Assembly: GCA_017303715.1 (NCBI GenBank)
Contig: JAFLBZ010000004.1
Coordinates: 130,887-194,886 of the forward strand
Length of the DNA: 64,000 bases
Direction of reading: 5' to 3'
Origin: Rhodothermia bacterium
GTDB taxonomy: Bacteria; Bacteroidota; Rhodothermia; Rhodothermales; UBA2364
The position numbers and the translations under genes are program-made. The notes under the pieces were generated by a model. The model worked only from the letters and a program-made list of their open reading frames with translations, had not been told where the DNA came from and did no database searches. Shown here one piece after another: positions 21,074 to 33,267 of the stretch. Every line of letters begins with the position of its first letter. The stretch's first letter is position 1.

Positions 21074-21331
21074 ACGTATGACTCCTATCGTGCAGGCAGT
21101 GTACACATGATTTTGCGGAAAGCCGTTGACAAATCTGGGGTTAAACCTTATACTACTGTACATACGTTAAGACACTCATTTGCCCTACATTTGTTAGCCC
21201 AACGTATGGAATTACGGTATATTACAATCCCACTTAGGTCTTAAGCGAACCTAGACCACCGAGTTCAATACCCATTCACCGAGCGGACTATTGCCCAGTT
21301 TGTAAGCCCCTTGGAGACCTATAGACAATAA
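21074..21331 (+). pseudogene. Decayed tyrosine recombinase (C-terminal catalytic part)
   Basis: In frame from about 21074 the translation reads ...YRAGSVHMILRKAVDKSGV..., then TVHTLRHSFALHLLAQRMEL and RYIT, an obvious match to the XerC/XerD/integrase catalytic block with the HxLR motif. A frameshift near 21234 then gives LGLKRT, a stop, and TTEFNTH, which aligns with the family's LGHKSxxTTExYTH. The second catalytic His and the nucleophilic Tyr are replaced (Leu and Asn). The original frame resumes as SPLETYRQ before TAA at 21331, similar to the SPLD/NPLD tail of integron and Bacteroidetes integrases. Frameshift, internal stop and lost nucleophile mean it is dead. It abuts the cassette-like defence island. 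Confidence 0.75.
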
Positions 21332-21363
21332 GGATATTGCCGCAATATTGTGGCAAAACAGAT

Positions 21364-21373
21364 GTTGGCGGTA
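21364..21373 (+). other. Candidate recombination-site half (R'-like) at the start of the darTG module
   Basis: GTTGGCGGTA, preceded by GGCAAAACAGAT and by an odd palindrome ATATTGC-C-GCAATAT at 21334-21348. TTGGCGGT (21365-21372) is the exact reverse complement of ACCGCCAA at 23146-23153 just past darG. That is the relation expected between the first bases of an integron-type cassette and the R'' half of its own attC. Support is moderate because only eight to eleven bases match and the AAC-GTT core is imperfect. Confidence 0.4.
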
Positions 21374-21460
21374 AGCAGTACGAACCACGCTCCAAACAGA
21401 AATTGACCAAAAGAAAAATACAAAAATCGCCTGAACATAACTCAAACTAAAAAATAACTC

Positions 21461-21468
21461 TAACTTTG
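21461..21468 (+). promoter_or_regulatory. TAnnTTTG promoter box very close to the darT start
   Basis: TAACTTTG matches the Bacteroidota -7 consensus TAnnTTTG and ends four bases before the darT ATG. A transcript starting the usual few bases downstream would begin at or next to the ATG, giving a leaderless or nearly leaderless mRNA. No clear TTTG -33 box is seen upstream. Confidence 0.4.
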
Positions 21469-21472
21469 TGCT

Positions 21473-22096
21473 ATGCCTAAGTTGGACAAAATATATCTAC
21501 TTAGAATGACCCATATTGAAAATATACCTCATATTATTCAGTGTGGCATTACGCATTCTACTTCTACCAACGCAAATCCTAATTTCAAACCAATTGGGGA
21601 CAATAGCTTAATTTCAACACGAAATAATTACACATTAGATAACGGGAAATTATTGGGGGAGTATATTCCGTTTTATTTTGGTGTACGAACACCTATGTTG
21701 TATGTCGTACAAAATGGGTTCAATATGGTTGCCCCGACACGAGCAGAAGATATTGTGTATTGTGTTAGTTCCATTCAAAAAATAATCGACTTGAATTTAG
21801 ACTTCGTTTTTACTGATGGACACGCAGTTGATAGTTTTAGTTCTCAGTACACAAAGGAAGATATCCAAAATATTGATCGTTTAATAGACAAAAATGCCAT
21901 CAACGCCAAATATTGGAAAGACGAAAATGACCTTGATTTAAAGCGTAGAAAAGAGGCAGAGTTTTTGGTCTTAGGAGATATTGCAACTGACGGAGTTTTA
22001 GGTTATGTTACCTACAACGAAAATGCAAAAAAACGGCTCATTGACTTTGGAGCAGATGCTTCCAAAGTAGTTGTTAAACCCGAATATTATTTTTAA
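21473..22096 (+). CDS. darT: DarT-like toxin: DNA thymidine ADP-ribosyltransferase
   Basis: 207 aa, normal DarT (formerly DUF4433) length. Family landmarks: IYLLRMTHIENIPHIIQCGI at the N terminus; an Arg at residue 50 in SLISTRNNY; YIPFYFGVRTPMLYVV (the PFYF block); and the catalytic Glu163 in RRKEAEFLVLGDI near the NAD site. Known DarT enzymes ADP-ribosylate thymidine in single-stranded DNA and block replication; DarTG systems abort phage infection. The antitoxin gene follows after three bases. DNA here is AT-rich compared with flanking housekeeping genes, consistent with acquisition. Confidence 0.93.
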   Translation: MPKLDKIYLLRMTHIENIPHIIQCGITHSTSTNANPNFKPIGDNSLISTRNNYTLDNGKLLGEYIPFYFGVRTPMLYVVQNGFNMVAPTRAEDIVYCVSSIQKIIDLNLDFVFTDGHAVDSFSSQYTKEDIQNIDRLIDKNAINAKYWKDENDLDLKRRKEAEFLVLGDIATDGVLGYVTYNENAKKRLIDFGADASKVVVKPEYYF

Positions 22097-22099
22097 ATT

Positions 22100-23134
22100 A
22101 TGATACATTACAAAATAGGCAACTTATTGGAAAGCGAAGCAGATGCTTTGGTAAATACGGTGAATACCGTTGGGGTAATGGGTAAAGGCATTGCGTTGCA
22201 ATTTAAAAATATGTTTCCCAATAACTTCAAACAATATGCTGATGCTTGCAAAAACAAAGAATTAGCTATTGGACAGTTATTAGTTACAGAAGAAAAATCA
22301 CTGTTATTAGGAAAAAAAATTATTATCAACTTCCCTACTAAAACTAATTGGCGATTGCCCTCTGAATATGAATATATTGAAGTGGGACTCGTGGAACTCG
22401 TAAATATTATCAAAGAAAAAAATATAAAGTCAATAGCCATTCCACCACTTGGTGCAGGAAATGGGGGTTTAAATTGGAACAAAGTGAAACAGATTTTGGA
22501 AAAATATTTGACAGATATTGACTGCGATATCTATATCTACGAGCCAAATATCGCCATACAAGAAGTTATAAAAAAGGAAAGAGTGAAATTAACACCAGCA
22601 AGGGCAATGCTTCTTTCTGTGTTGTATGATTTAGTTCGTAATGGTGAATTTGCATCAGAGTTTGCCTCAGAAAAAATTGCTTATTTCCTACAAAGATTTG
22701 GTGCAAAAGATATTTTTAAATTAGAATTTCAACCAAATTTTTATGGGCCATATTCAGGAAAAGTAAAACATGTTTTGTATTATTTGAATGGAAGCTATAT
22801 AAAGGGGTATAGTTCAAAAGATAAAAAACCTTTTGAAGAATTAGAATTAATTCCTGATGCTGAAATAGAAGTAAACCATTTTTTAAGTAAACCTGAAAAT
22901 GAAAAATATAAAAATATTGTAGAAAAAACCAAATTGTTTTTAGCAGGATTTTATTCATCATTTGCGTTAGAATTAATTTCAACTGTAGATTTTATTATTT
23001 CGGAAAAGAATGCCAATACAGAAGAAAAGATTATCAAAGAATTAGAAAGTTGGAGTGACCGAAAGAAAACATTATTTACCAACCAAAAATATATTAAAAT
23101 AGCATTGAATAACTTAAATTTACATCTAAACTAG
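22100..23134 (+). CDS. darG: DarG-like antitoxin: macro-domain DNA ADP-ribosylglycohydrolase with C-terminal toxin-binding domain
   Basis: 344 aa. The macro domain spans about 1-155: IHYKIGNLLESEADALVNTVNTVGVMGKGIALQFK with the catalytic-site NTVNxxGxMGKGIA pattern, and SIAIPPLGAGNGGLNW for the ribose-binding glycine loop. The C-terminal region (about 165-344, RVKLTPARAMLLSVLYDLV onward) matches the DarG domain known to sequester DarT. The enzyme removes ADP-ribose from DNA thymidines and neutralises the toxin. Three bases separate it from darT, ensuring coupled expression. Composition is strongly AT-rich. Confidence 0.93.
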   Translation: MIHYKIGNLLESEADALVNTVNTVGVMGKGIALQFKNMFPNNFKQYADACKNKELAIGQLLVTEEKSLLLGKKIIINFPTKTNWRLPSEYEYIEVGLVELVNIIKEKNIKSIAIPPLGAGNGGLNWNKVKQILEKYLTDIDCDIYIYEPNIAIQEVIKKERVKLTPARAMLLSVLYDLVRNGEFASEFASEKIAYFLQRFGAKDIFKLEFQPNFYGPYSGKVKHVLYYLNGSYIKGYSSKDKKPFEELELIPDAEIEVNHFLSKPENEKYKNIVEKTKLFLAGFYSSFALELISTVDFIISEKNANTEEKIIKELESWSDRKKTLFTNQKYIKIALNNLNLHLN

Positions 23135-23145
23135 AAAAAGCCCGA

Positions 23146-23222
23146 ACCGCCAATATTGCATTTGTGTAAGTCGGGAAGATGTGCTAAATTAAATATCGGC
23201 AGTACCCAAAACGTTATATACC
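23146..23222 (+). repeat. Putative attC-like recombination site after darG
   Basis: Between darG and the panE-like gene. The left half is AACCGCCAATATTGC; its ACCGCCAA mirrors TTGGCGGT at the start of the darTG block. The right half is CCCAAAACGTTATATACC with the AAC-GTT core at 23210-23215. GTTATATACC (23213-23222) is the near-perfect reverse complement (9 of 10) of GGCATATAAC at the end of the panE-like gene. Internal stem complementarity is weak, so confidence is lower than for the next site. Confidence 0.5.
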
Positions 23223-23251
23223 ACTACAAAACAACTAAAATTTAGAAAAAA

Positions 23252-24181
23252 ATGACAAAAACAAAAATACTAATTGCAGGAATTGGAGGAGTTGGGGGCT
23301 ATTTTGGTGGAGTATTAGCTAAACAATATTTTAACAGTAACGAAATTGAAGTTTGCTTTTTTGCACGTGGACAGCACCTTGACGAAATTCAAAAAAATGG
23401 CTTAAAAATACTTAGCAACAAAGATGAATTTATTGCCAATCCTAAAATAGCGACTGACAATCCAAACGAAATTGGAATTGCTGACTTAATAATAGTTTGC
23501 ACCAAAAGTTATGATATTGAAAATATTATTAAACAGTTAAAGCCTTGCATAAATCAGAAAACATTTATACTTCCTCTACTTAATGGTGTTGACAACAAAG
23601 AAAAAATTCAAATTTTACTTCCAGAAAACACTATCTTAGATGGGTGTGTCTATATAGTTTCTCGTTTGAAAAAGCCGGGAATTGTTGAAAAAATTGGTAA
23701 TATTCAAACTTTGTATTTTGGTAAAGAAAATTTTATTAATGACCAATTAGAATATTTTAGATACATTTTTAACAATGCAAATATCGAAGCGACGCTTTCA
23801 CAGAATATCTCTTCAATAATTTGGGAAAAATTTATTTTTATCTCACCAACAGCAACTGCCACAACCTTTCTTGATAAAAATATCGGAGAAATTGTTTCTG
23901 AAAACCATATTGAAACCATCACAAAATTAATACAGGAAGTTAAACAAATTGCAAAAGCTAAAAATATTGACATTGCAGAGAATATAACGGAAATTACAAT
24001 AAACAAATTGAAGTCATTACCATTTGACGCTACGTCTTCGATGCATACCGACTTTAAAAACAAAGAATCTTTTAACGAATTAAAATCTTTAACAAAATAT
24101 GTAATTGAACAAGGAATAAAATATAATATTGAAACACCAACATATATTAAAGCATATAACAAAATAAAAAGTGGCATATAA
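23252..24181 (+). CDS. Ketopantoate reductase family protein (ApbA/PanE-like)
   Basis: 309 aa NAD(P)H-dependent dehydrogenase. The N-terminal Rossmann loop is ILIAGIGGVGGYFGGVLA (GxGxxG), then FFARGQHLDEIQKNGLKI, DLIIVCTKSYDIE and LPLLNGVDNKEKI (the conserved NGxxN). The C-terminal domain has IIWEKFIFISPTATATTFL and SSMHTDFKNKESFNELKSL, matching the catalytic Lys and the (S)SMxxDxxxxxxxE block of PanE. Family enzymes reduce 2-dehydropantoate for pantothenate/CoA, but many paralogues act on other 2-keto acids. It is very AT-rich and isolated from any pantothenate gene. Its stop codon lies inside the putative attC site, so it looks like cassette cargo. Confidence 0.88.
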   Translation: MTKTKILIAGIGGVGGYFGGVLAKQYFNSNEIEVCFFARGQHLDEIQKNGLKILSNKDEFIANPKIATDNPNEIGIADLIIVCTKSYDIENIIKQLKPCINQKTFILPLLNGVDNKEKIQILLPENTILDGCVYIVSRLKKPGIVEKIGNIQTLYFGKENFINDQLEYFRYIFNNANIEATLSQNISSIIWEKFIFISPTATATTFLDKNIGEIVSENHIETITKLIQEVKQIAKAKNIDIAENITEITINKLKSLPFDATSSMHTDFKNKESFNELKSLTKYVIEQGIKYNIETPTYIKAYNKIKSGI

Positions 24182-24313
24182 CACGGGTTTTGCGTCAGGC
24201 GGGGTGACGTGCAAACTTGGAGCTTTGAGCTTCTATTCAAGTTCAGTGCAGGTTGACAGTTTAGTGCTCCGAAACCTGCCCGAGCGCCAAGCCCCGTAAC
24301 GTTGTGTGCAACC
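24173..24313 (+). repeat. attC-like recombination site of the panE cassette
   Basis: The left end ATATAACACGGGTTTTGCG (from 24176) pairs with the right end CGCCAAGCCCCGTAAC (24285-24300) to make an imperfect long stem. The interior has further pairing (GGCGGG with CCTGCCC, GGAGC with GCTCC). The right end is AAC-GTT-GTGTGC, an R'-like core. The R'' half GGCATATAAC is complementary in 9 of 10 bases to GTTATATACC at the upstream cassette junction, exactly the relation expected for an excised circle. The panE stop codon is inside R''. Length about 130-140 nt, comparable with long attC sites such as Vibrio repeats. Confidence 0.65.
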
Positions 24314-24541
24314 CTAAAAAGGACGACACGAGCGACAGAAAACAAACAAAAAAATGAAAGACAAAATGCCAATGCTTCAGCAAAATCAAAAGAGCAGCAT
24401 CCCCACGCTCAAAACCGACCCAATGCAGCACATTTGCTTTTGCCCCAACGCACCGTGTGACAACAAACTCGGTCTGACAGAAAAAACAGGCATTTAAAAA
24501 ACTAACTTTGATAATTAAAAATTTAGCATAACAGACAACAA
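24314..24541 (+). other. Leader region of the type I restriction operon
   Basis: Non-coding or nearly so. A 47-codon frame (24354-24497) gives a Cys/Lys/Gln-rich peptide with no recognisable domain and no support beyond being open. Near its centre lies GCACATTTGC (24432-24441), a ten-base word that recurs just after hsdR. A promoter-like box is listed separately. Confidence 0.5.
24503..24510 (+). promoter_or_regulatory. TAnnTTTG promoter box for the hsdM operon
   Basis: TAACTTTG fits the Bacteroidota -7 consensus and sits 31 bases before the hsdM ATG, allowing a short leader. No convincing TTTG -33 element is seen about 19 bases upstream. Confidence 0.45.
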
Positions 24542-26143
24542 ATGAGCGATAATTTAGCATTAGAAAAAACCCTTTGGCAAGCAGCCGACAAACTCCGCAA
24601 CAACATGGATGCGGCAGAGTACAAACATGTTGTGTTGGGCTTGATTTTCTTGAAATATATTTCAGATGCTTTTGATGAACTCTATCAACAATTAGACGCA
24701 AACAAAAACGAAACAGGCGCCGACCCGGAAGACAAAGACGAATTCACTGCCGAAAGAGTATTCTACGTGCCACCGCAAGCTCGTTGGAAATGGCTACAAG
24801 GCAGAGCGAAACTACCAACTATCGGCAAGGACATTGACGATGCAATGGATAGTCTTGAACGAGACAATGCGTCTTTAAAAGGCGTTTTGCCAAAAGACTA
24901 CGCCCGGCCTGCACTCGACAAACAACGACTCGGTGAACTCATTGACCTGATTGGCTCAATCACCTTAAGCAAAGGCGGAGACGGGAAAGGCAAAGACGTT
25001 TTGGGATTTGTGTTTGAGTATTTCTTGGGGCAGTTCGCAGATGCTGAAGGCAAAAAAGGCGGACAATTTTATACCCCTGCCAGCATTGTAAAACTCTTGG
25101 TGGAAATGCTTGCCCCCGAAGCCGAAAAACGGGTGTATGACGGCTGTTGCGGAAGTGGTGGCATGTTTGTGCAAAGCGAAAAATTCATAGAACTGCACGA
25201 ACACCGCAAAGGCAAGATTTCCATTTTCGGACAAGAAAGCAATCCGACCACTTACAAGTTGGCAAAAATGAACCTCGCTATCCGTGGCATTGATGCCAAA
25301 ATAGAGTTAGGCGACACTTTAATGAACGACAAGTTCCCTGAACTGAAAGTAGATTACATCATTGCCAATCCGCCTTTCAACATCAGCGATTACAACATCA
25401 ATAAAGCCGAAACCCATAAATGGAAATATGGCGTTCCGCCAACGGGAAACGCCAACTATGCTTGGCTGCAACACTTTGTGAGCAAACTTGCACCTTTCGG
25501 AACGGCAGGAATTGTTTTGGCAAACGGCAGTATGAGTTCTGAAATAGCCACCGAAGGTGAAATCAGAAAAGCCATGATTGAAGCCGACTTGGTGGATTGT
25601 ATGGTGTCGCTGCCTTCGCAGTTGTTTTACAATACCCAAATTCCCGCTTGTTTGTGGTTTTTGGCTCGCAACAAAACCGAAACCACCAAATTCCGAAACC
25701 GAACCAACGAAGTACTTTTTATTGATGCTCGTGAATTTGGCTCAATGATTAGCCGAAAACAAAAGGAACTGAGTGATGAAGACATTGCCAAAATTTCAGA
25801 CACTTACCACCGATGGAGAAAATGTCTGAACCTTGATTCACTTGATAAAAATGATTTAAAAAGGGATAAATCAAGCCAATTATTTAATCAAAAAGATCAT
25901 ATTTCAGACTATTTTGACATTCCCGGCTTCTGCAAATCTGCCACTATCGAAGACATCCGCAAAAACAATTACATCCTGACCCCTGGGCGATACATTGACT
26001 TTAAAGAAGTGGAAGAAGACGGACAAGCATTTGAGGAGAAAATGCAGATGCTCACTTCTACTCTTTCAGAGCAAATGAAAAAAGCAAACGAGTTGGATGA
26101 AGCGATAAAAGTGAATCTTAAAAAAATCGGATTTGAACTATGA
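24542..26143 (+). CDS. hsdM: Type I restriction-modification DNA methyltransferase subunit
   Basis: 533-aa N6-adenine methyltransferase. The N-terminal HsdM helical domain ([20 protein letters not shown] and [18 protein letters not shown]) is followed by the S-adenosylmethionine motif [12 protein letters not shown] (about 197-208), the [20 protein letters not shown] block, and the adenine-methylation motif [13 protein letters not shown] (about 273-285). Methylates the host recognition sequence with HsdS, and forms the restriction complex with HsdR. The C-terminal coiled region (about 470-533) probably contacts HsdS. Its stop overlaps the next ATG by four bases, so it is translationally coupled to the HepT-like gene. 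Confidence 0.95.
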
Positions 26144-26556
26144 GCGAACACGACATCAGGTGGCAGCAACGCTTCGATAATTTCTTAAAAGCCTTTGCCC
26201 TTTTGGAAAAAGCGGTTTTGCAGCACCAAGAAAGCGGGCTTTCGGAGTTGGAAGAACAAGGGCTTATTCAACGCTTTGAATTTACCCACGAACTGGCTTG
26301 GAACGTACTCAAAGATTACTTTGAATATCAGGGCAACACAAATATTACCGGCTCAAGAGATGCCACACGCGAAGCTTTTAACAAAGGGCTTATTGAGGAT
26401 GGCGAAGGCTGGATGGAAATGATAAAAAGCCGCAACAAATCATCACACACCTACAATGAAGACACCGCAAAAGAAGTCGTTCAACATGTCACCGAATGGT
26501 ACTACGATTTGTTTGTGGCGTTTAAAGCGAAAATGACTTCCCTAAAACTTCCATAA
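26140..26556 (+). CDS. HepT-like HEPN protein (nucleotidyltransferase substrate-binding family, HI0074-like)
   Basis: 138 aa, all-helical. Features of the HI0074/HepT group are [19 protein letters not shown] near the N terminus, [20 protein letters not shown], and the HEPN ribonuclease-type motif RNKSSHTY (R-x4-H-x-Y, about 106-113). Family knowledge: HepT is a HEPN RNase toxin silenced when the partner MNT nucleotidyltransferase AMPylates it next to this motif. The partner domain here is the N-terminal part of the next protein, which is fused to HsdS. The ATG overlaps the hsdM stop, so this toxin-like gene is built into the restriction operon. Confidence 0.87.
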
Positions 26557-26559
26557 ACC

Positions 26560-28185
26560 ATGTTCGGACTGCAGCAAAAACATATAGATGCGATCAACGC
26601 CTGCTTTGCCCAATACCCACAAATTGAGCAGGTGATACTTTATGGCTCACGGGCAAAAGGCAATTACAAAAACGGCTCCGACATAGACCTGACCATAGTG
26701 GGGGATTTGGACTACAATAGCTTGCTGAAATTAGAAAATCAATTGGACGACCTGCTCCTGCCCTATAAAATGGATCTCTCGCTAAAACATAAAATTACCA
26801 ACCCGGATTTGTTGAATCATATTGAGCGGGTGGGGAAGGTGTTTTATGAGAAGGCAATCGAAAAGGTGTTAAGCAAGCCTGATGCAGCGTATGGAAAACC
26901 AAGCGAGTGGAAAACATATAAGTTGGGGGAATTGATACACTTAGTTGGGGGTGGGACACCAAAAACTACTGTTCCAGAATATTGGAATGGAGAAATTCCG
27001 TGGCTTTCTGTTGTTGATTTCGGAAAAGGACTTAAAAAAGTTTACCAAACCGAAAAATCCATAACCGAAAAAGGGCTTAATGAAAGCAGCACTAAAATTT
27101 TGAAGGAAGGACAAATCATTATTTCTGCCCGTGGAACTGTTGGAGAATTAGCAGTCTTAGGCAGAGATATGGCATTTAACCAATCGTGTTATGGTATTTA
27201 TGCCAATGAAAAAACAGAGAACAATTTTCTTTACTATCTTCTTAAATACAGCATTGTCAAGATTAAGAAAAACACCCACGGGGCTGTGTTCGATACAATC
27301 ACAAAACAAACTTTTGACAATATAGAAGTTTCAATCCCTGAGAGTAAAGAAACCCAAAACCAAATCGCCGCCATCCTCTCCTCCCTCGACGACAAAATAG
27401 CACTCAACCTACAAATGAACCAAACGTTGGAAGCCATGGCTCAGGCCATTTTCAAGGAGTGGTTTGTCAATCTCAACTTCCCCAAAAGTCTGAACCTTGA
27501 TTCATTTGATTTGCCTGATTTACATGATTTAAAGAATCAGGACAATCAAGAAAACCCCAAAAATCACAGTTCAGACAATGGACTGCCGAAGGGGTGGAGA
27601 ATGGGTCCCATTAGAGAATTAATAGATGTGCAAAATGGTTACGCTTTCAAAAGCGGTGATTTTCTTGAAAAAGGCAATAATGGTGTAATAAAAATTAAAA
27701 ACATTTCTAATAATGTAGTTGACATAGTCAATATGCAATTCGTTTCTGATGAAGTTGCTAAAAGCATCGGCAGTCGCTTCAAGGTCAAAAGTGCCGATTT
27801 ACTTATTGCAATGACTGGTGCAGAAGTTGGTAAAGTTGGCATTGTGCCAAACACTGAAAAGAAACTTTGGTTAAATCAGCGAGTAGGCTCTTTTAAGGAA
27901 AAAATTAATTACGCAAAGTGGTTTGTTTATTTGATACTTTCTACAAAAGAATATCAAAACGTATTACTGAGTTCTGCAAGCGGAAGTGCACAGCCAAATA
28001 TTAGTGCAGCACAAATTGAAAGTGTAGAGACATTAATCCCAACTCACAATTTCATTGAAAATTTCGGAGAAATTGTGAACCCAATATTTGAAAAGATTTT
28101 AGATAATTTCAAACAAAACGAAGTTTTAACCCAACTCCGCGACACCCTTCTCCCCAAGTTAATGAGCGGACAAATTAAACTTTAA
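26560..28185 (+). CDS. hsdS: Fusion of MNT-type nucleotidyltransferase with type I specificity subunit HsdS
   Basis: 541 aa in one uninterrupted frame. Residues 1-100 are a minimal nucleotidyltransferase: VILYGSRAKGNYKNGSDIDL (G-S-x-A-x-G ... S-D-x-D-L, about 25-44). Residues about 115-541 are HsdS: TRD1 (EWKTYKLGELIHLVGGGTPK), a central conserved helix (QIAAILSSLDDKIALNLQMNQ), TRD2 (GWRMGPIRELIDVQNGYAFK) and the distal helix (NEVLTQLRDTLLPKLMSGQI). No Met lies between the end of the MNT domain and the first TRD, so a separate internal HsdS start is unlikely. Combined with the upstream HEPN gene, this puts an MNT/HEPN toxin-antitoxin pair inside the specificity subunit. Confidence 0.9.
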   Translation: MFGLQQKHIDAINACFAQYPQIEQVILYGSRAKGNYKNGSDIDLTIVGDLDYNSLLKLENQLDDLLLPYKMDLSLKHKITNPDLLNHIERVGKVFYEKAIEKVLSKPDAAYGKPSEWKTYKLGELIHLVGGGTPKTTVPEYWNGEIPWLSVVDFGKGLKKVYQTEKSITEKGLNESSTKILKEGQIIISARGTVGELAVLGRDMAFNQSCYGIYANEKTENNFLYYLLKYSIVKIKKNTHGAVFDTITKQTFDNIEVSIPESKETQNQIAAILSSLDDKIALNLQMNQTLEAMAQAIFKEWFVNLNFPKSLNLDSFDLPDLHDLKNQDNQENPKNHSSDNGLPKGWRMGPIRELIDVQNGYAFKSGDFLEKGNNGVIKIKNISNNVVDIVNMQFVSDEVAKSIGSRFKVKSADLLIAMTGAEVGKVGIVPNTEKKLWLNQRVGSFKEKINYAKWFVYLILSTKEYQNVLLSSASGSAQPNISAAQIESVETLIPTHNFIENFGEIVNPIFEKILDNFKQNEVLTQLRDTLLPKLMSGQIKL

Positions 28186-28190
28186 AGGCT

Positions 28191-29141
28191 ATGATAAACA
28201 CCATTGAAATTTTTGAAGCGGACAACCGCCAGATTGAAGTTAGGATGTCGTCGGACACCGTATGGTTGACGCAAGCTCAGATGTCGGCTTTATTTGAGCG
28301 AGACCAGTCCGTCATTTCCCGACACATTCGGAATGTGTTTGCAGAGGGCGAATTGGAAGAAAAAAGCAATATGCAAAATTTGCATATTGCAAATTCCGAC
28401 AAGCCCGTAGCGTTTTACAACCTCGACGTCATCATCTCTGTCGGTTACCGCGTGAAATCGCAGCGCGGCACCCAGTTCCGCCAATGGGCTACGCAGCGGC
28501 TCAAAGACTACTTGGTGCAGGGCTACGCCCTCAACCAAAAACGCCTTGAGGAATTGGGCAAAATGGTGCAGCTCATTGAGCAGTCGGGCGGCAGCGCAAG
28601 CCTCCAACTTGGCGAGGCCAAGGGGTTACTGGAGATTTTGAGCGGCTACACCCGCAGTTTTGTGCTGCTCAATCAGTACGACAGCCATAACCTGCCCTCA
28701 GCGCCTTTTAACCCCAATGTTACCTACGAAATAGCGTACGACGAGGCCAGTACCGCCATTGCCGAACTCAAAAAGCAACTCATCGCCAAAAAAGAAGCCA
28801 CCGAACTGTTCGGCAACGAAAAAGACGACAGTTTTTCAGGCATTTTGGGCAATATTGTACAAACCTTTGGCGGGCAATATCTTTACCCCAGCATAGAGGA
28901 GCAAGCCGCCCATCTGCTCTACTTTGTCATCAAAAACCACCCGTTCACCGACGGCAATAAGCGGATCGGCGCGTTCCTTTTTGTCTGGTTTTTGGAAAAA
29001 AACAAACACGCCCTGAAACCCTCGGGCGAACTTAAAATCAACGACAACGCCCTGACTGCTCTGGCGCTGCTCGTAGCCCAAAGCGATCCCGCCGAAAAAG
29101 AACTGATGATCCGATTAGTCTGCAACCTTATCAATGCGTAA
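28191..29141 (+). CDS. RhuM-Fic fusion protein
   Basis: 316 aa. N-terminal RhuM domain (about 1-115): VWLTQAQMSALFERDQSVIS and KPVAFYNLDVIISVGYRVKS, followed by FRQWATQRLKDYLVQGYALN. C-terminal Fic/Doc domain (about 140-316) with active-site motif HPFTDGNKRIGAFLF, the HPFxxGNxRxG signature in the K-containing Doc-like form. Fic proteins transfer AMP or another nucleotide moiety to proteins, or phosphorylate them in Doc. RhuM-Fic genes often sit inside type I restriction operons. It begins six bases after hsdS and ends immediately before the hsdR ATG. Target unknown. Confidence 0.9.
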   Translation: MINTIEIFEADNRQIEVRMSSDTVWLTQAQMSALFERDQSVISRHIRNVFAEGELEEKSNMQNLHIANSDKPVAFYNLDVIISVGYRVKSQRGTQFRQWATQRLKDYLVQGYALNQKRLEELGKMVQLIEQSGGSASLQLGEAKGLLEILSGYTRSFVLLNQYDSHNLPSAPFNPNVTYEIAYDEASTAIAELKKQLIAKKEATELFGNEKDDSFSGILGNIVQTFGGQYLYPSIEEQAAHLLYFVIKNHPFTDGNKRIGAFLFVWFLEKNKHALKPSGELKINDNALTALALLVAQSDPAEKELMIRLVCNLINA

Positions 29142-32100
29142 ATGAGAAACAGCATCACCGAAAACGAAATAGAAGATATTGCCCTTTCCTACTTGCAGGA
29201 CTTGGGATATTCCGCCCTATTGGGCACGGTGATTTCACCAGATGGTGAGCACCCCGAAAGGCAATACAACGAAGTGGTGTTGCTTACCCGTCTGCGTGAT
29301 GCCATAGACAAACTCAATCCCACCCTTTCGCAAGATGCCAAAGAAGATGCCCTGAAAAAAGTATTGCGTACCGAAAGCCCCAATGCCTTAATCAACAATG
29401 AAAACTTTCACCGCTACCTGACCGATGGCGTAGATGTGGAAGTAAGAACCGATAGCGGCATTCGTGGCGAGAAAATTTATATCGTTGATTTTGAAAATCC
29501 TGAAAACAACGAGTTTTTAGCCATCAACCAGTTTACGGTGGTGGAAGGCAACCAAAACAAACGCCCCGATATTATCCTATTTGTCAACGGCTTGCCTTTG
29601 GTGGTGATAGAACTCAAAAATGCGGTGGACGAAAACGCCAACCTGAAATCGGCATTCAACCAACTGCAAACCTACAAACAAGCCATTCCTTCGCTGTTCA
29701 CTTACAACAGTTTGCTCATCATCAGCGATGGGTGGGATGCCCGTTGTGGCACCGTCACCAGCGATTTCGGTAGGTTCATGACGTGGAAGACTCCGCCCTC
29801 AACCCCAACCCTTCTCCCACGGGGAGAAGGGAGCAGCTATCGTGGAAATCTTAAATATTCAGGGTTAATCGAAGAAGCCCGTGAATTAAGGAAAAAGCAA
29901 ACCAAAGCAGAAGAAATCTTTTGGCAATTGGTACGCAATAGAAAATTCAATAATCTCAAATTCAGAAGACAGCACCAGATTGGAAATTATATTGCGGATT
30001 TTTATTGCGATGAGTATAGGTTAGTGATTGAATTTGATGGTGAAATTCACAATTCAACAGAACAACAAAAACACGATAGTAAAAGAGATAAATTCTTGAG
30101 CAGTTCAGGGTTTAAGGTGATTAGATTTAAGAATGAAGAATTGCTAAACGCTCCAGATTCAGTTTTTGAAAAAATCGATAGGGCAATTTTAGGTAATTCA
30201 CAAAAAGTCAATAGCTCCTCTCCCACTGGGAGAAGCGGGGGTGAGGGATTACTTGAAATGGAAGTGATGTTTCACGGAATGTTGAACAAACACACACTAT
30301 TGGATTTAATCCGTCAGTTTATTGTCTTTGAAAAAACAGGTAGTGATGTTGCATGCAGCGTTTCTAAAAAGATAGCCGCCTATCATCAATATTATGCAGT
30401 AAATAAAGCCGTAGAAAGCACCGTAACCGCCAGCGGGCGCCATGGCGACAGGCGTGGCGGTGTCATCTGGCACACACAGGGCAGCGGCAAAAGTTTGAGT
30501 ATGGTTTTCTTTTCCGGCAAGCTCATCATTGAACCGAGAATGGAAAACCCCACCTTGGTTATCCTGACCGACCGTAACGATTTGGACGAGCAACTGCACG
30601 AAACCTTTACCAATTGCCAGCAACTTTTAAGGCAAGAACCCCAAAAAGCCGAAGACCGAAAAGATTTAAGAAAATTACTGAAAGTGGCATCAGGTGGCAT
30701 TGTGTTTACTACCATCCAGAAGTTTATGCCCGTTAGGGCTGACCTGCATATCAGCCCTGATGACAATGTGCTAAACGAACCGGCAGTAGAATACATCGGT
30801 GCAGATATACAAGCATTGAGCGAACGCAAAAACATTGTAGTTATTGCAGATGAAGCCCACAGAAGCCAATATGATTTCATAGATGGCTTTGCCAAACATT
30901 TGCGCGATGCACTGCCCAATGCCACCTTTATAGGCTTCACGGGTACCCCCATTGAAACCACCGACAAAAACACCCAAGCCGTTTTCGGCAACTATGTCGA
31001 TATTTACGACATACAGCAAGCCGTAGAAGATAAAGCCACCGTTCCGATTTTCTATGAAAGCCGTTTGGCCAAAGTACATTTTGCAGACGAGGAGAAAGTA
31101 ACCATAGATGAGCAGTTTGAAGAACTCACAGAGGGCGAAGAATTAAGCAGCCGCCAACAGATGCGTGCAAAATGGACACGCTTGGAAGCGATTGTGGGCA
31201 ACCCCAACCGGCTACAAAAAATTGCCGAAGATTTGATCTATCACTTCGAGCAGCGAAACGCCGTATTGGAAGGTAAAGCCATGATAGTTTGTATGAGCCG
31301 TAGAATTTGCGTTGAACTCTATGATGCCATTATCCGAATTCGTCCGCTTTGGCATTCAGATGATGACGATAAAGGTACTATCAAAGTAATCATGACGGGC
31401 AGCAGCAGCGACGTCCTGAATATGCAATCCCATATTCGCAACAAACCCAGAAGAAAAGCCATAGGCGACCGTTTGAAAAATCCGAACGACCCATTGAAAT
31501 TGGTCATTGTTCGGGATATGTGGCTTACAGGCTTTGATGCCCCTTGTTTGCATACGCTGTATGTGGACAAGCCCATGCGTGGACACAACCTGATGCAAGC
31601 CATAGCACGGGTAAACCGCGTATTTACCGAAGGCAAAGAAGGCGGTTTGGTCGTGGACTATTTAGGTATAGCACAAGAACTGAAAACAGCCTTAGCCGAC
31701 TACACGGCAAGCGGTGGCGAAGGCAAACCCACACTGGATCAGGAATTGGCAGTTGCCAAAATGTTGGAACTGCACGAAGCAATAGACTACCAGTTAAGGC
31801 ATTTTGATTGGCGTAAATTCTTCACACTTACACCCGAAGAAAAACTGAAATTCATTCCTGTCATCGTGGATTACATTTTCAGTCAGGAAAACGGAGAGCA
31901 GAGTTTCACGGAAAACACCAAAAACCTGTTGAAAGCCTTTGCGATTTCCGTTCCCCACGAACGGGCAATGGCCATCCGTGATGATGTGGCCTTGTTCCAA
32001 GCCATCAAATCACGGTTGGTGAAAATATCCGACAGAAACGAAGGCGGTAAAACGGACGAAGAAATGGAAACCGCCATCAAGCAAATCATTTCAGAAGCCA

Positions 32101-32735
32101 TCACAGCCGACAATGTGATAGACATTTTTGATGCCGCAGGACTGAAAAAGCCCAACATTGAAATTCTTGATGAACGCTTTTTGCAAGAACTAAAAGACTT
32201 ACCCCAAAAGAACTTAGCTGTTGAGTTATTGAAAAAATTACTCAAAGACGAAATCAAAAAGCGGACAAAAATAAACTTGGTAGAAAGCAAGAAGTTTTCC
32301 GAAATGTTAGAAGATGCCATCAAACGCTATCACAACGGAATGATTGACGCGGTAGAGTTTTTGGAAAAAGTGCTTATTCCTTTTGCCGAGCAAATGAAAG
32401 AAGCCGATAAACGTGGTGAGAAATTGGGCTTGGATGACAGAGAATATGCCTTTTATACGGCTTTGGAAGTAAACAACAGTGCCGTAGCTGTATTAGGTGA
32501 CGACATACTCAGACATATTGCACAGGAACTTTTAAAGACCGTCCGCAACAGCACAACCATTGATTGGACAATTAAGGAAAGTGTTCAATCTGCTTTAAGA
32601 CGAAACATCAGACGAATTTTACGACTGCACGGCTATCCGCCCGACTTACAAGAAAAAGCAGTTGATACCGTAATCACCCAAGCAAAAATGTTAGCAGAAG
32701 ATATAGTGATGAATGGAGACAAAACAGAACAATAA
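29142..32735 (+). CDS. hsdR: Type I restriction endonuclease subunit with inserted DUF559 nuclease domain
   Basis: 1197 aa, longer than most HsdR (about 1000-1080) because of an insertion. The N-terminal PD-(D/E)xK nuclease is intact: [10 protein letters not shown] (about 141) and VVIELKNA (about 155). The DEAD-like motor has Walker [12 protein letters not shown] (near 446), DEAH in [12 protein letters not shown] (near 569), and GFTGTPIE. The C-terminal helical domain runs to 1197. At about 218-369, between nuclease and motor, a complete DUF559/Vsr-like nuclease domain is inserted in frame. The subunit translocates DNA and cuts unmodified DNA remote from the site. It is the last gene of the operon; the start ATG follows the RhuM-Fic stop directly. 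Confidence 0.93.
29796..29840 (+). repeat. Left inverted terminal repeat of the DUF559 insertion
   Basis: Starts CCCTCAACCCC and contains the hairpin CTTCTCCCACGGGGAGAAG (29811-29829), then GGAGCAGCTAT. It aligns with the reverse complement of 30211-30247 over most of its length (CCCTCA, CTTCTCCCA, GGGAGA, GGAGC and CTAT blocks shared). Confidence 0.7.
30211..30247 (-). repeat. Right inverted terminal repeat of the DUF559 insertion
   Basis: On the minus strand reads CCCTCACCCCCGCTTCTCCC followed by AGTGGGAGAGGAGCTAT, matching the left repeat with small gaps. It contains its own short palindrome (TCTCCCACTGGGAGA). It codes for the Ser/Gly-rich exit linker in HsdR. Confidence 0.7.
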
Positions 32736-32747
32736 GCCCACTCATTT

Positions 32748-32795
32748 GGTGGCACATTTGCAAAACCATACAAGCCAAGCCGCAAAATAACGTAA
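32748..32795 (+). repeat. Possible degenerate attC-like site after hsdR
   Basis: GGTGGCACA (32748-32756) is complementary, eight of nine bases, to TGTGCAACC at 24305-24313, the bases following the previous cassette junction. It is followed by ATTTGC and ends with GCAAAATAACGTAAACG, giving a short stem and an AACG-T core that departs from AACGTT. If real, the whole restriction operon lies in one 8.5-kb cassette-like unit. Evidence is weaker than at the two upstream sites. Confidence 0.3.
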
Positions 32796-32814
32796 ACGTA
32801 GAAAGAGAAGCGCC

Positions 32815-33267
32815 TTAGCGGTTTTTCTCGTCGTCCATGATGCGTTTTTCCAATTCCAATCCTTGTTTTTTAAGGGCAGCCTCCAATGGACGCAGAACCT
32901 CTTGGATAACGTGCCGTTCCATGTAAGGGATTTTACCTTTGTGTCCCGAAATCAAATATTTTCGATACGCATTGATGTAAATCCGCACAAAGCGTGATTG
33001 AAACATCGTGGCTTCGAGTTGAACCAAGATTTTATAGACCTGAAAGTCGCGGATTTTCTTTTCTTGCGTAACGATCACGCCCTTTGCTGGGCCGTTGGTC
33101 AGTTCCCATCCAGCTTCAAGGAAGGCGGATTTAGCTTTTTCTAATGCTGCCTCACGCGGGGCAGCACGGTAGTCGCGGTAGATGGGCGTTAGGGCTGGGG
33201 TACAGGCACTCCCAAAAAGAATTGGCACAAAGGCAACAAAAAAGCGAATACTTAGGGACATAGACAT
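32815..33267 (-). CDS. Small hypothetical lipoprotein
   Basis: About 150 aa from the Met at 33267 (a second Met two codons on, 33261, is equally good). The signal peptide ends in lipobox FGSAC, so it should be lipid-anchored. The mature part contains REAALEKAKSAFLEAGWELT followed by a beta-rich stretch (GVIVTQEKKIRDFQVYKILV, then RFVRIYINAYRKYL) and a charged C-terminal helix. It resembles small periplasmic lipoproteins of unknown function. It lies on the opposite strand to hsdR and marks the return to core-like genes right of the island. Confidence 0.65.
   Translation of the reverse strand: MSMSLSIRFFVAFVPILFGSACTPALTPIYRDYRAAPREAALEKAKSAFLEAGWELTNGPAKGVIVTQEKKIRDFQVYKILVQLEATMFQSRFVRIYINAYRKYLISGHKGKIPYMERHVIQEVLRPLEAALKKQGLELEKRIMDDEKNR

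Follow-up and report, generated by a model that had tools for sequence, protein, structure and literature searches.

The locus analysed here raises the question of whether a panE-like gene in a Rhodothermia bacterium can be the cargo of an integron and, if so, what would move it. A preliminary description of the surrounding 64,000-nucleotide stretch of DNA (the window), made from the sequence alone, had claimed that the gene is a single-gene integron-type cassette with its own attC site, that its product is a metabolic reductase, and that the window holds no intact integrase. The features needed to assess these claims are the following, in window coordinates and all on the forward strand:

21077..21316 (+), remnant of the 3' portion of an integrase gene of a kind that lacks the IntI-specific I2 domain (tblastn and blastn against the intact C24 copy in the same genome)
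21317..21366 (+), attI, GACCTATAGACAATAAGGATATTGCCGCAATATTGTGGCAAAACAGATG^TT, with the crossover between 21364 and 21365
21365..23213 (+), likely cassette 1, carrying the toxin-antitoxin pair DarT (21473-22096) and DarG (22100-23134), by NCBIfam
23142..23222 (+), degenerate, partly deleted attC of cassette 1 (18.8 bits against our covariance model R1)
23214..24301 (+), likely cassette 2, 1088 bp, holding the panE-like gene (junctions read directly)
23252..24181 (+), intact panE/apbA-like reductase gene, 309 aa (Pfam, TIGR00745)
24170..24310 (+), attC-like site of the panE cassette (R1 129.5 bits; member of the R1 seed alignment)
24302..32735 (+), possible cassette 3, a type I restriction-modification operon (by gene content)

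The panE cassette runs from a G^TT junction at 23213/23214 to a second at 24301/24302. The sequence at its upstream junction, GTTATATACC (23213-23222), is complementary at 9/10 bases to the R'' of the 3' site, GGCATATAAC (24173-24182); the stop codon TAA (24179-24181) lies inside the R'' half; and the 3' hairpin terminates as AAC-GTTGTGTGC (24297-24309), R' being GTTGTGTGC at 24301-24309. Junction, complement, stop codon position, hairpin end and the length of 1088 bp had all been given in the preliminary description, and all held exactly. The identity of the cargo held as well: both Pfam domains, ApbA and ApbA_C, are matched, and the TIGR00745 score of 210 bits exceeds the cut-off of 141, so that the product meets the criteria for a ketopantoate reductase and belongs to the PanE/ApbA family, its substrate specificity being inferred only. 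A search of its own genome at E<=0.001 returned the gene itself alone, and no relative was found in the viral contigs searched. The nearest homologue (73% identity, L038) has no attC. Its contig is binned as Limnohabitans and its neighbouring proteins are Bacteroidota-like; a binning error is possible.

Taken by itself, the 3' hairpin barely beats shuffled sequence (folding energy z = -1.72 for the top strand and -0.97 for the bottom strand), and a single hairpin is therefore unconvincing; the case has to be built from its relatives. We constructed a covariance model, R1, from 22 sites, against which the panE 3' site scores 129.5 bits (E 1e-28). As this site is among the 22, its own score is biased, and the unbiased evidence consists of independent sites in other genera and of boundary pairing over 60 cassettes. 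The preliminary description had proposed two checks: an attC covariance model, whose failure to match, together with unconserved ends, would have refuted the reading, and a search for panE with the same ends in other contexts. R1, a model of our own making, matches, and by it the reading is not refuted; the second check failed, with panE not seen between the same ends in another context.

DNA searches place the panE 3' element, whole or in part, at eight places in its own genome, and find it in the two genus mates as well, with a spacing of about 1 kb in places. The sites sit at gene ends and form arrays. One array in the same genome (G000:C34) carries a BsuBI/PstI-type restriction endonuclease with its methyltransferase, a second methyltransferase and other genes, and an array in another genome (G375) has 19 sites; together with the two cassettes in the window, these satisfy the integron criterion of tandem, co-oriented cassettes split by attC sites. 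R1 counts are 33 in the own genome and 26 and 22 in the other two genomes of the genus, and 186/389 sampled Bacteroidota genomes carry sites at E<=0.001. The only negative control for R1 is the 203 Bacteroidota genomes without a site, none of them from another phylum. Rfam returned no match, and occurrences of the pattern TAACGTTRTRNGC in the own genome were uninformative, since its reversed control was as frequent.

That these sites conserve a structure is shown by covariation among 86 sites from other genera. The proportion of cells paired is 91.7%, against 64.2% after shuffling, double-sided changes number 237 against 78, and the covariation score of 0.674 falls to between 0.02 and 0.11 in controls in which the partners are slid by 1-3 columns, the signal being lost. 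The alignment of these sites was fitted to R1 and hence leans towards the structure. The attC criterion of an imperfect hairpin whose structure is conserved above its sequence is met. When folded under DNA parameters with the three outer pairs forced to form, 77/98 sites are more stable as the bottom strand; a 1x1 mismatch and a one-sided bulge of 4 nt are the features seen most often in the predicted folds across the 98, and bulges of a single base are less frequent. Classical IntI docks extrahelical bases through I2 (PMC7790495); fewer such bases would suit an enzyme without I2, an inference from predicted folds only.

A referee might object that the hairpins are no recombination sites, only repeats (REP, MITE or terminator) scattered over the ends of genes, and that the geometry around panE is incidental; the sites are indeed repetitive, palindromic and found at gene ends. 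Boundary pairing distinguishes the two readings. In an integron the bases that follow GTT belong to the next cassette and are expected to pair with that cassette's own R'', whereas the ends of a repeat, terminator or transposon would pair with themselves. Over 60 consecutive pairs, start bases matched the R'' of the same cassette at a mean of 5.15/6 positions (67% perfect), compared with 2.55 for a site with its own R'', 2.58 when one site was skipped, 2.56 for the previous site and 2.51 for all pairs; none of 5000 permutations reached the observed mean. The panE cassette itself scores 5/6 in this test. The criterion that the 5' end of a cassette complement the R'' of its own attC is thus met over 60 cassettes. 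R' finds its partner in the R'' of the following site, not in its own, and the attI described below has the same G^TT junction, which together leave the repeat reading very unlikely. The boundaries of the cassettes are shown by these data; that the panE-like gene is a single-gene cassette with its own attC-like site, excisable in the manner of an integron cassette, is the likely reading, with excision and recombination inferred and neither observed. The cassette claim of the preliminary description is accordingly supported, by recurrence of the site in its own and related genomes, by covariation and by next-cassette pairing.

The claim that no intact integrase lies in the window also held, yet a decayed integrase with an attI (21077-21366), about 2 kb upstream of the panE cassette, had been missed, as had the DarT-DarG cassette ahead of panE and a partner recombinase without the IntI-specific domain. 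The relic is 65% identical to the intact C24 copy over residues 284-363 of the latter, and its frame is broken. In cassette 1, DarT and DarG score above the cut-offs of NF048013 and NF048014, and the 5' end, GTTGGCGGT, pairs at 8/9 bases with the R'' ACCGCCAAT (23146-23154). Its degenerate attC reaches E 4e-4 in an R1 search over 3.8 kb, unfiltered, and E 0.045 over 383 kb; the R' of this site (GTTATATACC) doubles as the start of the panE cassette. Downstream of panE, the type I restriction operon comprises HsdM (24542), HsdS (26560), Fic/RhuM (28191) and HsdR (29142-32735). R1 found no supported attC after it, at 32600-33100, so its status as a third cassette is left open; a stretch at 32770-32800 that by eye resembles the 3' end of an attC was considered and set aside as unsupported. 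Two peculiarities of the operon may be recorded separately: in HsdR, a DUF559 domain (residues 244-348, 122.7 bits) separates the N-terminal HSDR_N domain from the motor domain, and at 26140-28185 HsdS carries a nucleotidyltransferase domain as an N-terminal fusion and follows a nucleotidyltransferase substrate-binding partner. In all, two cassettes of an integron-type platform probably lie in the window; the integrase gene of this platform is dead, and any activity of the platform is a matter of inference.

The attI was recognised by comparison within the genome. Seven platforms agree as far as ACAGATGTT (ACGGATGTT in a single case) and then diverge at once, at ACAGATG^TT, the spacer being shorter in two of the seven; on this sequence evidence we read the shared end, 21317-21366 in the window, as attI. 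In DNA searches, integrase sequence accompanies attI at eight platforms, and just the attI end is present at three more. At the own platforms C2, C6, C24 and C32 the first cassette fits its junction; at the C19 platform the first R1 match fails to fit the junction. In several other genera, too, the sequence after the integrase enters a common junction like TATAAACGAGTTRGC, so that the criterion of an attI beside the integrase gene, with a G^TT crossover, is met both at own platforms and in other genera. One internal deletion is common to three integrase copies (G000 C2, C6 and C19; L067-L069), and the roughly 1 kb upstream of the three attI-only copies recurs in front of the intact integrase. 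From these shared features the platforms appear to have dispersed as partly deleted copies. The shared upstream 1 kb holds tandem repeats of roughly 53 bp (G000 C9 and C13; L159-L161).

The intact copy at G000:C24 (L066 5605-6711) is an open frame of 369 residues. The recombinase is of the tyrosine type, its domains being Phage_int_SAM_4 and Phage_integrase. Against the NCBIfam integron integrase model TIGR02249 the scores are 190 and 210 bits, below the curated cut-off of 265, so that this criterion for an IntI is unmet; the XerA model gives 196 bits, also below its cut-off (220). From KDR to HxLRH the span is 71-72 residues in 11/11 relatives, as against 113 in four true IntI, and the IntI insertion is unmatched in an alignment with IntI4 (2a3v). 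The I2 domain is absent from the array-linked recombinase, a result that rests on sequence alignment. A C-terminal SPLD/SPFD motif is shared with IntI. Three further observations concern individual enzymes. The C24 copy, the only intact integrase of its type in the genome, has LLGD where relatives have LLGH, at a catalytic-pentad position; the enzyme may be impaired, or the sequence may be in error there. Integrases of a second type, 567-590 residues long (G030:C65, L065 10275-12044; G127:C98, L064), appear to carry a short N-terminal domain in three repeats ahead of the core, with only a weak DUF5710 match below cut-off. At G007:C2:1943240-1950513 (L146), an I2-less integrase without the N-terminal domain and its array are divergently oriented, the arrangement of classical integrons.

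Is this recombinase tied to the sites, or is it a bystander? I2-less integrases occur in 116/389 genomes, and R1 sites in 99 of those 116 compared with 87 of the 273 others (OR 12.45, Fisher p 3e-23), although the genomes are phylogenetically dependent and the p value overstates the evidence. For linkage, the site list comprised the best-scoring part of the 389-genome R1 search and sites from a further search. Within 16 kb on one contig, the nearest site was downstream and co-oriented in 23 cases, divergent in 4 and otherwise arranged in none, the array reading away from the I2-less integrase in 27/27 close cases. Linkage and co-occurrence are thus shown. In the 87 site-bearing genomes without an I2-less match at E 1e-45, other recombinases or decay have to be allowed for.

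The rival explanation is that a classical IntI, in other strains or species, moves what are ordinary cassettes. In its favour, a true IntI above the TIGR02249 cut-off is present in 104/389 of the Bacteroidota genomes, and archaeal attC sites recombine with IntI1 (PMC9668308), so that IntI might use these sites. (The figure of 104/389 far exceeds what the complete-genome survey of PMC9024848 would lead one to expect.) Against it, only 41/186 site-bearing genomes have an IntI match and 145/186 have none, sites being slightly depleted in IntI genomes (OR 0.60, p 0.03) and strongly enriched where the I2-less enzyme occurs; no IntI exceeds the cut-off in any of the three genus genomes; and attI adjoins the 3' end of the I2-less gene. 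We regard this explanation as unlikely. On boundary pairing, the lack of association with IntI and the co-occurrence with the I2-less enzyme, both the repeat or terminator reading and the classical-IntI reading were rejected.

The explanation that we favour, and consider likely, is a Bacteroidota-wide integron variant in which the I2-less recombinase, a relative of IntI, does the moving, recombination being inferred and not observed. The array in the window would be ordered attI, DarT-DarG, panE and, possibly, the type I restriction system. By analogy with integrons, the attC hairpin on which a tyrosine recombinase acts would be that of the folded bottom strand; the enzyme would link R' with attI at G^TT and, by the same reaction, release the cassette as a circle. 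The intact C24 homologue may act in trans on the platform in the window and on about ten other attI platforms. The system is widespread in Bacteroidota, with the integrase gene mostly reading towards attI and the array. The role of the recombinase, the single-stranded substrate, action in trans and present-day activity in this strain are all inferences from sequence alone. As the platform meets the testable integron criteria set out above while the recombinase family tied to it fails the IntI test, we file it as an integron variant, its activity inferred.

Set beside the sedentary chromosomal IntI integrons of the Vibrio and Xanthomonas type, this variant shares an integrase gene with an adjacent attI and G^TT, co-oriented arrays, structure-conserved attC hairpins, R'/R'' pairing per cassette and toxin-antitoxin cargo. 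It differs from them in an integrase without I2 whose gene mostly reads towards the array, in having about eleven attI platforms in one genome, and in a predicted attC outer stem with a 4-nt one-sided bulge and a 1x1 mismatch, in which single extrahelical bases are rarer. Treponema integrons (PMC3607928) likewise have the integrase transcribed towards attI, in the cassette direction, but their integrase is reported as an IntI, whereas the present one lacks I2. XerA, XerC and XerD also lack I2; unlike them, the present family is linked to attC arrays and attI, and most of its members have an extra N-terminal region. For the 'Integron-like' subgroup of tyrosine recombinases (PMC8138268), the relevant sections tie no I2-less members to attC arrays. 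Integron surveys (PMC2426708, PMC8352920, PMC9668308) select integrases by I2, so that an I2-less system would be missed or reported as attC clusters without an integrase; the one complete integron that IntegronFinder 2.0 listed for Bacteroidetes proper was from Salinibacter (PMC9024848). We found no I2-less integron described in the open-access literature searched, but preprints and most subscription papers were outside its scope and a prior description is possible.

How the I2-less recombinases arose is a separate matter, compatible with the integron variant either way. I2 is taken as the defining domain of all integron integrases, and has been described as an innovation that enabled single-strand cassette recombination and is absent from other proteins, Xer being the closest relatives of IntI (PMC7790495). 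In our tree IntI forms one clade (100/100); outside this clade the I2-less sequences make up a grade that lies closer to IntI than do the two Xer outgroups. One origin would be from IntI by secondary loss of I2, for which the shared integron lifestyle and SPLD/SPFD motif speak; the placement of the I2-less rows as a grade between Xer and IntI speaks against it, and we lean slightly away from it. The tree is rooted on those two long-branched Xer outgroups alone, and the program warns of long branches meeting; with outgroups so few and long, ancestral absence and loss of I2 remain undecided. The bolder reading, towards which the balance tips by a small margin, is that of a second kind of integron, with sites in about half of the sampled Bacteroidota and an integrase without I2, that may descend from a lineage predating I2 and so show a pre-I2 integron at work. 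If true, a natural integron without I2 would make both the claim that I2 is necessary and the origin of integrons directly testable, and the cassette-based exchange of genes, including defence, toxin-antitoxin and metabolic genes, would extend to a large phylum.
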